Position numbers and translations under genes: made by a program. A model generated the notes under the pieces. That model saw only the letters and a list, made by a program, of their open reading frames with translations. It made no database searches and was not told the origin of the DNA. Of a DNA stretch of 64,000 nucleotides, positions 16,157-53,314 are shown piece by piece. Numbering within the stretch: position 1 is the first letter of the stretch; each line of letters starts with the position of its first letter. The DNA is from Truepera radiovictrix DSM 17093. GTDB taxonomy: Bacteria; Deinococcota; Deinococci; Deinococcales; Trueperaceae. The stretch lies in NCBI RefSeq assembly GCF_000092425.1, contig NC_014221.1, forward strand, positions 1,183,001 to 1,247,000, in the 5' to 3' direction.

Positions 16157-16200
16157 GCTTACGTTTAGGTTTTTGCTTACGTGTAGGTGTTTGCTTACGT
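16157..16200. repeat. 18-bp tandem repeat, 2.4 copies
   Basis: GCTTACGTNTAGGTNTTT repeats at 16157-16174 and 16175-16192, followed by a third partial GCTTACGT. It is T-rich against a GC-rich background and lies in the 330-bp gap between the polyprenyl synthase and the quinate-dehydrogenase-like gene. Function unknown. Confidence 0.75.
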
Positions 16201-16255
16201 GCGTTCTGGGGGCTGCGGCACCGGTGACCTGAGGCGCCCGTTGCAGAGGCTGCGG

Positions 16256-17510: not shown

Positions 17511-18068
17511 ATGATCAGCGTAACGGAACTGCGAAACGGCACCAAGGTCGAGATGGACGGCGGCCTGTGGGAGTGCCTCGACTACCAACACCTCAAAATG
17601 GGCCGCGGCGGCGCCAAGGTCGTGACGAAGTTTCGCAACCTCGAGAGCGGCGCCATCGTCGAGCGCACCTTTAACGCCTCGGAAAAGCTGCAAGACATCT
17701 TTATCGACTACCGCAAGATGCAGTTTCTCTACTCCGACGGCGACACCTACACCTTTATGGACACCGAGACCTACGAGCAGCCGACCCTGACGGCCGAGCA
17801 GATCGGTTCGTCGGCAAAGTTCCTCAAGGAGTCCATGGAGGTCACCGTCGACTACTACGGCGACAAACCGCTCAAAGTCACCCTGCCCAACGTCGTCGAG
17901 CTCACCATCACCCAGACCGACCCGGGGGTCAAAGGCGACACCGTCTCGGGAGGGTCGAAACCGGCCGTGCTCGAGACCGGCGCGACGGTCGCCGTACCGC
18001 TCTTTATCGACCAGGGTGAAACGGTGCGCATCGACACCCGCACGGGCGAGTATCTGGGGCGGGCGTGA
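17511..18068 (+). CDS. efp: translation elongation factor P
   Basis: A 185-residue tRNA-mimic that binds between the P and E sites and relieves ribosome stalling at polyproline. The KOW-like N-terminal domain holds the tip loop LKMGRGGAKV (near residues 29-38), with Arg rather than Lys at the tip. This differs from E. coli, where a Lys is beta-lysylated, and no modification enzyme is adjacent. The OB-fold domains follow, with the C-terminal signature LPNVVELTITQTDPGVKGDT. GGAGG lies 6 bases before ATG 17511, so I rejected the longer in-frame start at 17448. It heads the operon-like run to accB and accC, an order also seen in Firmicutes. Confidence 0.95.
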   Translation: MISVTELRNGTKVEMDGGLWECLDYQHLKMGRGGAKVVTKFRNLESGAIVERTFNASEKLQDIFIDYRKMQFLYSDGDTYTFMDTETYEQPTLTAEQIGSSAKFLKESMEVTVDYYGDKPLKVTLPNVVELTITQTDPGVKGDTVSGGSKPAVLETGATVAVPLFIDQGETVRIDTRTGEYLGRA

Positions 18069-18113
18069 TCGCCCCCAAAGCGCGGCTACAGGGGGGCGAC
18101 GAAGGGGTGAGGC

Positions 18114-18590
<477 letters not shown>

Positions 18591-18643
18591 CGCGCGGGGG
18601 CGACGTAGCGATGGTAAAAGCTGCTCACTCTCCAAGAAAGTCG

Positions 18644-18702
18644 GTAGTCAGCCGTCAGAAGTCAGCGTGGACCTCGCCTACTGACTTCTGGCTCCTGACT
18701 AC
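18644..18702. repeat. palindromic element between accB and accC
   Basis: Two 22-nt arms (18644-18665 and 18681-18702) are reverse complements at 19 of 22 positions and enclose a 15-nt loop. The stretch is visibly poorer in G+C than accB and accC. The arms are built from near-repeated GTCAG/CAGAAG units. It resembles the dispersed GTCAGGAGCCAGAAGTCAG-type palindromes found in several bacterial genomes. It ends 9 bp before the accC ATG and would place a stable hairpin in the accBC mRNA. Confidence 0.8.
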
Positions 18703-18711
18703 TGGATACTG

Positions 18712-20049
18712 ATGTTTAAAAAAATCCTCATCGCCAACCGCGGCGAGATCGCTCTGCGCGTGCTGCGCGCCGCCCGCGAGCTCGGGATCAAGACCGTCCA
18801 GGTCTACTCGACCGCCGACGAAAACTCGCTCCCCGTGCTTCTAGCCGACGAGTCGATCTGCATCGGCCCCCCTGCCTCGGCGGGGTCGTACCTCAACGTG
18901 CGCAACCTCCTCTCGGCGGCGCTCGTCACGGGCGCCGAGGCGATCCACCCCGGGTACGGTTTCCTCAGCGAAAACGCCGAGTTCGCGCAGAAGTGCGAGG
19001 AGCACGGCATCACCTTTATCGGGCCGCGCCCTGAAAACATCCGCGCGATCGGCGACAAAGCGAGCGCGCGGCGGGTCGCGCAGGAGAGCGACGTGCCGGT
19101 GGTGCCGGGTTCGGGGGCGCTCGCCTCACTAGACGAAGCCAAGGCGTTCGCCGCCAAGATCGGCTACCCCGTGATCCTTAAAGCCTCGGCCGGGGGGGGC
19201 GGGCGCGGGATGCGCATCGTGCGGAGCGAAGAGGAGCTCGCGCGCAACCTCGCCAACGCCCAGGAGGAGGCGCGGGCGGCTTTCGGCAACGGCGAGATGT
19301 ACATGGAGAAGTTTTTGGAGGAGCCGCGCCACGTCGAGATCCAGGTGTTCGGCGACGGCGAGGGGCACGTGATGCACTTTTTCGACCGCGACTGCTCGAT
19401 CCAGCGCCGCTACCAGAAGGTTCTGGAGGAGGCCCCGAGCACGCTTGACACGGCGCTCAGGCTCGAGATCGCCGAGGCGGCGGTGCGGCTCGCGCGCCAC
19501 ATCAACTACCGCGGGGCGGGCACCTGCGAATTCCTCGTCGACCGCGACGGTTCGTTCTACTTCTCCGAGATGAATACCCGCATCCAGGTCGAGCACCCCG
19601 TGACCGAGATGGTCACCCGTTTCGACCTCGTGCGCGAGCAGTTTCGCGTCGCCGCGGGGGAGGGGTTGTCGCTCGCGCAGGAGGACGTGACGGTCTCGGG
19701 CCACGCCATCGAGGTGCGCGTCAACGCCGAGGACCCCGACCGCGACTTTCGCCCCTCGGCCGGGACCTTGACCGACGTGCACTGGCCGGGGGGGCCCGGC
19801 ATCCGGGTCGACTCGCACGTCTATGCGGGGTACCGCATCCCGCCGCACTACGACTCGCTGGTCGCGAAGATCATCGCGTGGGCGCCCACGCGCGACGAGG
19901 CGATCGCCCGGATGCGGCGGGCGCTGCAAGAGACCGTGTTAGAGGGCATCAAGACCACCATCCCCTTTCACCTGCGCGTGTTGGACAACGCGTTTTACCA
20001 GCGTGGGGCCGTCTACACCACCTTCATCGCCAAACGGATGCAGGGATAG
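18712..20049 (+). CDS. accC: acetyl-CoA carboxylase, biotin carboxylase subunit
   Basis: ATP-grasp enzyme of 445 residues that carboxylates the biotin on AccB using bicarbonate. It starts at once with the family motif KKILIANRGEIALRVLRAARE. It then shows HPGYGFLSENAEFA, FIGPRPENIRAIGDKASAR, the ATP loop KASAGGGGRGMRIV near residues 158-171, the catalytic EAPS segment, and MNTRIQVEHPVTE with the essential Arg/Glu residues. Length is normal. There is no obvious Shine-Dalgarno sequence, because the palindromic element ends just upstream. That may lower or modulate translation relative to accB. Confidence 0.96.
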   Translation: MFKKILIANRGEIALRVLRAARELGIKTVQVYSTADENSLPVLLADESICIGPPASAGSYLNVRNLLSAALVTGAEAIHPGYGFLSENAEFAQKCEEHGITFIGPRPENIRAIGDKASARRVAQESDVPVVPGSGALASLDEAKAFAAKIGYPVILKASAGGGGRGMRIVRSEEELARNLANAQEEARAAFGNGEMYMEKFLEEPRHVEIQVFGDGEGHVMHFFDRDCSIQRRYQKVLEEAPSTLDTALRLEIAEAAVRLARHINYRGAGTCEFLVDRDGSFYFSEMNTRIQVEHPVTEMVTRFDLVREQFRVAAGEGLSLAQEDVTVSGHAIEVRVNAEDPDRDFRPSAGTLTDVHWPGGPGIRVDSHVYAGYRIPPHYDSLVAKIIAWAPTRDEAIARMRRALQETVLEGIKTTIPFHLRVLDNAFYQRGAVYTTFIAKRMQG

Positions 20050-52866: not shown

Positions 52867-53314
52867 GAGGTCTCCTTATCGCGAGCGGCCCATACGCTTA
52901 AACCCGCACCCGTGAGGCGCTCGGAGCGAGGGCCATGCAGCTAGACGCCTCCTCGAGCGTTCCCGTGGGGCCGCTAGCACCGCCCGCGGCGCTATACCGG
53001 TGACCAGGAGCATCCTTGGGTCGTGCGCGCTCACAGCGCTTCGTCCACCGAGCGTGCTCGCCAGGTGTTGTGACACCTAAAGGTACTGCTAAAGGCGTTG
53101 CAAACGACATAACAGAAACGACATAACAGGTGGTGTGCAAAATGCATGTGTTAACGTGTGCCAACGTGGGCGTTTATATAGATGTGGTCGACGAGAGAGC
53201 GCACATAGCGACGTCAAGGGTGCCACTGGTACGCCCTCTATTTTACACACGCTTTGGCGAGGGGGCGTCAACCGTGCGCTAGCGAGGGGGTTGCCCCGCG
53301 ACGCTCATCTTGCG
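52867..53314. other. low-GC intergenic region upstream of the AI-2E gene
   Basis: About 450 bases, clearly richer in A+T than its surroundings around 53060-53260. It holds a perfect tandem 14-bp repeat, TATATA-like stretches on the minus strand (near 53165-53175) and several TTGAC-like hexamers. Short minus-strand frames here are Cys/His/Thr-rich and unconvincing. Confidence 0.4.
53102..53129. repeat. perfect 14-bp tandem direct repeat
   Basis: AAACGACATAACAG occurs twice head to tail. It is A/T-rich against the local background and sits about 240 bp upstream of the AI-2E start. It could be a double operator site or a mutational slip. Confidence 0.7.

Follow-up and report, generated by a model that had tools for sequence, protein, structure and literature searches.

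The palindrome between accB and accC in Truepera is most simply explained as a member of the IVP/S23 element family that has no gene, either non-autonomous or a remnant. We give this reading a probability of roughly 70%. The account is the simplest because the palindrome shares its heptads, its arm order and its genome with an element that carries an IVP gene. The palindrome belongs to a family of seven-base repeats, and a gene-bearing member with the same ends lies in the same genome. Inverted heptad arrays flank most of the PF05635 genes examined in several phyla, and one protein clade matches this particular heptad. A related element occupies one plasmid site in some plasmids and is missing from it in others, with 5 bp duplicated where it is present. 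To our knowledge, the heptameric repeats reported so far have no known source, and the common PF05635 (S23) proteins have no established function. Joining the two gives both a single testable hypothesis, in which the protein recognises the repeat and the two move together.

The palindrome between accB and accC

As originally predicted, two 22-nt arms (18644-18665 and 18681-18702) are complementary at 19 of 22 positions (86%) around a 15-nt loop (18666-18680, from the arm search and the fold). They are the sole 22-nt arm pair in the 64-kb window, that is, the whole stretch of DNA analysed, when up to three mismatches and a loop of 3-30 nt are allowed. First-order Markov copies of the window lacked such a pair in 18 of 20 cases, and the other two had 2 and 4 of them. 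Folded as RNA, the 79-nt accB-accC element reaches -38.3 kcal/mol (z -5.75), and none of 200 shuffles was as good.

The flanking genes are indeed accB (biotin carboxyl carrier protein, plus-strand ORF at 18114-18590; TIGR00531, E 1.7e-49) and accC (biotin carboxylase, plus-strand ORF at 18712-20049; TIGR00514, E 2e-204). The palindrome does lie in an A/T-richer patch, with a G+C content of 0.58 over 18644-18702 versus 0.71 in accB, 0.67 in accC and 0.69 in the window. It was also fair to say that the accC start lacks a Shine-Dalgarno sequence, since there is just a weak GGA 8-10 nt upstream.

The true repeat unit at this junction has seven bases, GYCAGNN, and its arrays extend beyond the 22-nt arms, to 18640 and 18713. 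The left array (18640-18665, plus strand, run score 29) reads GTCGGTA-GTCAGCC-GTCAGAA-GTCAG and includes the first arm. The right array, inverted (18681-18713, minus strand, run score 32), reads CTGACTT-CTGGCTC-CTGACTA-CTGGATA-CTGAT, includes the second arm and overlaps with its end the accC start codon at 18712. The remaining spacer (18591-18639, plus strand) is without clear heptads, run detection beginning at 18640. A candidate open frame of 33 codons (18611-18712, plus strand) crosses the palindrome in the same frame as the ORF at 18458-18712, and its TGA overlaps the accC ATG (TGATG).

Two other identities were considered for the site. An intrinsic terminator was rejected because the sequence after the stem, TGGATACTGATGTTTAAA, has no T-run and the site lies inside an operon. 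A known structured RNA was rejected because no Rfam family reaches its gathering score in 17800-19500, where the sole listed match is snoU54 (19.1, threshold 35). Elsewhere in the window, an 18-nt unit is repeated 2.5 times at 16157-16201 (GCTTACGTGTAGGTGTTT) and there is a perfect 14-nt tandem repeat at 53102-53129 (AAACGACATAACAG).

The heptad family and its gene-bearing member in Truepera

The expectation of a dispersed family was confirmed by searching the genome, a single contig of 3,260,398 bp. A three-heptad pattern with at most one mismatch gave 111 matches, overlapping ones counted, versus 0 for the reversed control. Site mapping covered 168,594 bases, mostly outside the window and chosen for containing heptad matches. 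At a score of at least 25 these bases contain 31 sites with 41 array runs, and a cut-off of 19 gives 35 sites with 51 runs; the reversed sequence yields 3 and 11 runs, respectively. Given these control counts, we take the number of real GTCAG sites to be about 30. They are mainly intergenic and often fill the whole gap, as judged from our own ORF calls.

Across 259 heptads, the core is conserved (G 0.88, T/C 0.86, C 0.88, A 0.85, G 0.98) and the sixth position is free. Among two-arm sites scoring at least 19, all 13 are ordered GTCAG-loop-CTGAC, the same order as the ends of the IVP element. The arms are not specific to their partners. In 14 elements, the mean match of an arm to its own partner is 15.4, versus 15.3 to other arms (8390 of 20000 permutations as high), and the own partner is the best match in three of the 14, two of which are the accB-accC hairpin and the IVP element. 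Stem-specific covariation was rejected on this ground, since arms pair equally well with the arms of other elements, and the heptad, more than the stem, is therefore the common feature. The palindrome is not one fixed 22-nt unit but a heptad array. In consisting of tandem 7-nt units at many intergenic places, the GTCAG arrays resemble STRRs, although we take their unit sequence to differ from those of the classical STRRs.

Arrays of another heptad, GAGYRMY, abut or adjoin GTCAG arrays at G000:C1:768484-768598, 773309-773353 and 1254623-1254757. As these arrays run into each other, the two heptad types may be nested or interconverting. Another member of the Trueperaceae, G045, has 242 matches to GAGYRMY heptads, often GAGTGAT, a count for which the reversed control is not valid as the pattern reads nearly alike backwards; its PF05635 match is only below the cut-off.

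One pair of GTCAG arrays in the Truepera genome, at G000:C1:1252061-1252140 (plus) and 1252531-1252590 (minus), encloses a gene of 121 codons. The gene belongs to PF05635 (23S_rRNA_IVP, the intervening-sequence protein of 23S rRNA, E 2.0e-34) and also matches TIGR02436, four helix bundle protein. The accB-accC copy likewise has inverted arrays of one heptad at both ends, with just the 15-nt loop and no PF05635 gene inside. The original suggestion of a mobile, non-autonomous element is strengthened by this gene-bearing element with the same ends. The situation is like that of MITEs, which are short, gene-less inverted-repeat elements with a gene-bearing relative in the same genome: there are many genomic copies here, and the relative with the same ends is the element at G000:C1:1252061-1252590. 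Unlike in MITEs, the ends are arrays of variable length rather than fixed terminal repeats, and the relative has no known transposase. A second PF05635 gene, at 3059660, is associated with other heptads.

Two Protein Data Bank entries, with five chains each, are related to the IVP protein, namely 2gsc (E 1.1e-17) and, less clearly, 2rld (E 0.049 by itself and 1.2e-9 when a profile is used). An excerpt of one paper describes the Xanthomonas protein as a homopentameric ring (PMC4990558). In family profiles and the Protein Data Bank, no nuclease or transposase motif was recognised in the IVP. A role as a defence system was rejected because the IVP has no PADLOC match. There is a weak likeness, below the cut-off, to Avd, the accessory protein of diversity-generating DGR systems (E 2.6e-5), and Avd is homologous to PF05635 according to an excerpt of PMC10053308. 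Unlike in DGRs, no PF00078 reverse transcriptase is matched in the Truepera genome, and an Avd-like partner role would therefore be one without an obvious enzyme.

PF05635 elements across phyla and at plasmid sites

The architecture of the Truepera element is a general one. We compared the upstream flank of PF05635 genes with the reverse complement of the downstream flank, at the same locus and between loci in different genomes. The comparison covered 30 Deinococcota loci (of 31 matches, those with a locus) and 30 further loci, mostly from Bacteroidota and drawn from many more matches. Own flank pairs lie above the 95th percentile of cross-locus pairs in 48 of 60 cases (23/30 in Deinococcota, 25/30 in the others), with scores of 18.4 versus 10.0 and 21.8 versus 10.2, respectively. 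Flank pairs of accC, used as a control, do so at 3 of 65 loci, that is, at chance level. Period-7 runs occur at the flanks of 22/30 Deinococcota and 19/30 other loci; period 8 is found in 2 and 5, period 6 in 4 and 1, and the remaining periods in at most 2. Judged by eye, each locus has its own heptad, and many have the same one at both ends. Among the 144 arms of 72 loci, 84 hold a period-7 run, with a median of 4.3 units.

The match between protein and heptad extends to one clade. A tblastn search of plasmids with the Truepera IVP returned 23 records, mostly cyanobacterial, of which 16 were examined. Five cyanobacterial loci with proteins 58-65% identical to it are flanked by AGTCAGRA-type heptads like those of Truepera, and a sixth in this identity range, L306, is flanked by repeats of other kinds. 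A tree was built from 72 PF05635 proteins; its bootstrap had not settled, and its cyanobacterial rows include the near-copies L305/L307 and L304/L308. All eight GTCAG-labelled loci fall in one clade of 10 in this tree (support 100/99). These loci come from Deinococcota, Firmicutes (G113) and Cyanobacteria. Besides these eight, the clade contains L306 and G103, the latter scoring 16 and 8 for GTCAG, a partial signal. The label requires 3 changes on the tree, versus a mean of 7.7 when shuffled, and none of 500 shuffles was as low. The threshold for a GTCAG locus was set after the scores were seen; under a looser threshold L239, L311 and L315 also qualified, and the last two score nearly as high or as high on the reversed control. 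L240, L226, L266 and L267 were dropped before the tree as fragmentary or weak PF05635 rows.

The distribution of the heptad among genomes is uneven. Among 61 genomes of the order, exact matches to the three-heptad pattern number 57 here, 3 in G058 and 1 each in eight others. A four-heptad pattern is present in 13 of 111 genomes of the phylum, with 62 matches here, 104 in G063 and 5 in G103; the congener G110 has none. PF05635 is found in 10 of the 13 genomes with GTCAG arrays versus 18 of the 98 without (Fisher p 4e-5, uncorrected for kinship), and the three array-bearing genomes lacking PF05635 have one array match each. Counter to this, G063, whose matches are a variant of its own (GTCAGCC/GTCAGCGG), has 104 GTCAG-type matches, yet none of its four PF05635 proteins falls in the GTCAG clade. 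No PF05635 match was found in G110, a draft genome that is 91% complete. The arrays of G063, G045 and G110, which are without a matching intact IVP, imply that arrays can outlive or lack the gene, or have another maker.

Evidence of movement comes from plasmids. An element is present on Trichormus and Scytonema plasmids and absent on those of Nostoc linckia, Microchaete and Nostoc carneum, which are about 98% identical around the site (site A). The filled sites exceed the empty ones by 428 bp (L305) or 414 bp (L307), and the left arrays of the two differ by 14 bp. The empty site has a single GTAAT, and when the site is filled GTAAT stands at each end of the insert, an exact 5-bp duplication. 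The insertion point is the stop codon of the upstream gene. The L305 insert has no other annotated gene and no transposase gene. On a further plasmid, L319, site A holds a relic that consists only of the left array and the beginning of the gene.

Among the plasmid sites compared, site A is the only filled/empty pair with an exact duplication. At a second site (L304/L308 filled, L323-L325 empty), a TTCTA duplication is visible by eye and was not confirmed by exact matching. At the third (L303) and fifth (L310), the ends are too diverged. The fourth is filled in L312, empty in L330 and, in L329, occupied by heptad arms that enclose a 260-nt gap lacking an IVP frame; it shows no clean duplication. 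Phage or virus carriers were rejected, there being no tblastn match in phages and none confirmed in viral_contigs. In Truepera itself no insertion event was seen, and the accB-accC copy has no demonstrable target duplication; the scored relatives have a junction without a GTCAG array and are too diverged to reveal one.

These elements recall the intervening sequences (IVSs) of 23S rRNA genes in Coxiella and Leptospira, in which an S23/IVP gene lies between inverted arms. Excerpts of PMC4990558 describe the Coxiella IVS as 428 nt long with tandem GACAGAT heptads before its ORF, and mention older suggestions that IVSs are mobile. Unlike an IVS, the accB-accC copy lies between protein genes, has no ORF and comes from a dispersed family. 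An Azospirillum plasmid sequence (L315, 1-1739) has a PF05635-like gene with heptad arms inside a 23S rRNA gene, the whole stretch matching RF02541.

We envisage that solitary hairpins would be derived from gene-bearing elements that lost their middle part, or would be moved in trans by such elements. The IVP protein itself may read the heptads. A ring with one heptad per subunit is conceivable because the solved relatives have five chains and the arms mostly have three to five heptads. The staggered cut would be made by the IVP or by a host enzyme, and insertions would survive in operon gaps such as the one between accB and accC. A mobile element of this kind is one that fits between operon genes while leaving the operon open.

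Alternative explanations and other heptameric repeats

The hairpin could instead be a functional regulatory element of accBC, kept because it lowers or couples accC translation, whatever its origin. We regard this as possible, at well below even odds. In its favour, the hairpin is stable (the z score given above) and the open frame across it ends at TGATG. A different palindrome also occupies the same junction in the congener G110 (L184), with ATGAGCA-like heptads and significant period 7. Among family genomes, 37 have an accC match, 30 of them with a locus and 28 with a readable accB-accC spacer. The spacer is 121 nt here and 174 nt in G110, and, against such a role, it is just 3-83 nt in 26 other Trueperaceae and holds no GTCAG array. 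Over the 200 nt before accC, the GTCAG-array scores here, 29 and 32, compare with a maximum of 12 among the 28 scoreable relatives (29 examined). Instead of a single copy conserved in distant relatives, which would have told against the original prediction, there are many copies and no array in the 28 scored relatives. The presence of the same heptad family at about 30 other places in the genome likewise counts against a role particular to accBC.

Periodic runs at the accC flanks of the control set (period 7 in 17/65, period 8 in 8/65) led to a comparison of the accB-accC gap as a hot spot. We considered 45 loci with a spacer of 40-200 nt, mostly from Bacteroidota (the L061-L140 set with full flanks). 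Period 7 is significant in 18/45 spacers and period 8 in 10/45 (shuffling p ≤0.01), with other periods in 0-3. Periods 7 and 8 are significant in 1 and 2 of 45 regions downstream of accC and in 1 and 6 of 45 upstream of accB. A z of -2 or below is combined with period 7 or 8 at p ≤0.02 in 23/45 spacers. The gap therefore collects heptad or octad repeats in Bacteroidota too, with sequences other than that of Truepera, which accords with a function at this junction. Against this, fold stability is equal downstream of accC (z ≤-2 in 29/45 for both), and the Bacteroidota loci are related, so that the counts are not independent events. The accB-accC gap may simply be easy to target, or hairpins may be retained in it for setting the AccB:AccC ratio. 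Junctions with and without hairpins form a natural series for the study of translational tuning.

We think it unlikely that the arrays serve to bind a host regulator or a nucleoid protein and are not parts of a mobile element. The conserved GYCAG core with its free sixth position is what a protein site might look like, and excerpts of the papers on Geobacter paired heptads (PMC2700814) and Beggiatoaceae TAACTGA (PMC4679880) favour regulator binding for those repeats. Against such a role, the arrays are nearly absent from the congener and most of the order, whole arrays with an IVP gene are present or absent at one plasmid site, and inverted flanks match at 48 of 60 PF05635 loci.

We consider it very improbable that the arrays are REP-type palindromes moved by a Y1 (TnpA-REP/RAYT) transposase, although both kinds are dispersed intergenic palindromes. 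The arms do hold GTAG, and REPs tagged with GTAG are reportedly known. The genome has 11 Y1_Tnp matches. An ORF separates one of them, at 766862, from a GTCAG array about 1.3 kb away, at 768545. Around three of the 11 copies (four loci), however, the stretches examined hold no GTCAG array (best run score 8-12, versus at least 19 for arrays), and identical scores place 10 of the 11 in two groups, of 7 and 3, the pattern expected for IS200 copies. The structure also differs, in being made of heptad arrays, and the related plasmid element at site A has a 5-bp target duplication, which does not fit single-strand Y1 insertion. Equally improbable is expansion of simple sequence in place by slippage and fold-back copying, with likeness between sites due to convergence: array length does vary between near-identical loci (the 14 bp between L305 and L307), but about 30 separate sites share the GYCAG heptad, which also accompanies one protein clade in three phyla. 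An arm is no closer a mirror of its own partner than of other arms, and the plasmid insertion is clean, with a duplication.

A gene-less member of the IVP/S23 family thus remains our preferred reading of the palindrome, and it bears on other repeats. In the excerpts available of the respective papers, Nostoc csR1/STRRs, Xanthomonas GGGAATC, Beggiatoaceae TAACTGA and Geobacter class 3 repeats are likewise 7-nt units, often in intergenic inverted pairs. Geobacter has paired MTYCTGA heptads (PMC2700814), which on the other strand read TCAGRAK, and the Nostoc csR1.1 repeat ttgtcag (PMC2408588) is close to GTCAG. In one Xanthomonas strain there are 70 inverted GGGAATC pairs, generally apart from mobile elements (PMC4692102, excerpt). 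TAACTGA occurs in Beggiatoaceae, cyanobacteria and Bacteroidetes, and for it 'no mechanism is evident' (PMC4679880, excerpt). Unlike here, the portions of these papers that we cite treat heptameric repeats as regulator sites, as G-quadruplexes or as of unexplained origin, and do not link them to an IVP gene. Our searches of openly licensed PubMed Central papers gave no report of heptad arrays joined to an IVP gene outside rRNA, and one may be in print elsewhere.

Our results suggest a common origin for many of the bacterial heptad repeats that have lacked an explanation, as fragments of a single widespread type of mobile element. A bolder version, which we offer tentatively and hold to be doubtful as a whole, is that IVP/S23 elements are widespread transposable elements without a known transposase, in which a four-helix-bundle ring protein would recognise its own 7-nt repeats and mobilise both its own gene and gene-less hairpins. 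The heptameric repeats of cyanobacteria, Xanthomonas, Geobacter, Beggiatoaceae and Deinococcota would then be one phenomenon, and insertions between accB and accC would have been kept repeatedly as setters of the AccB:AccC ratio.

Two observations concern the places that PF05635 elements occupy. Across Deinococcota genera, elements of different clades lie in the same operon gaps, namely trpE-trpG, odhB-lpd and acyl-CoA dehydrogenase-etfB (gene names read from sequence). On cyanobacterial plasmids, the elements L306, L310 and L311 lie between annotated cas genes.
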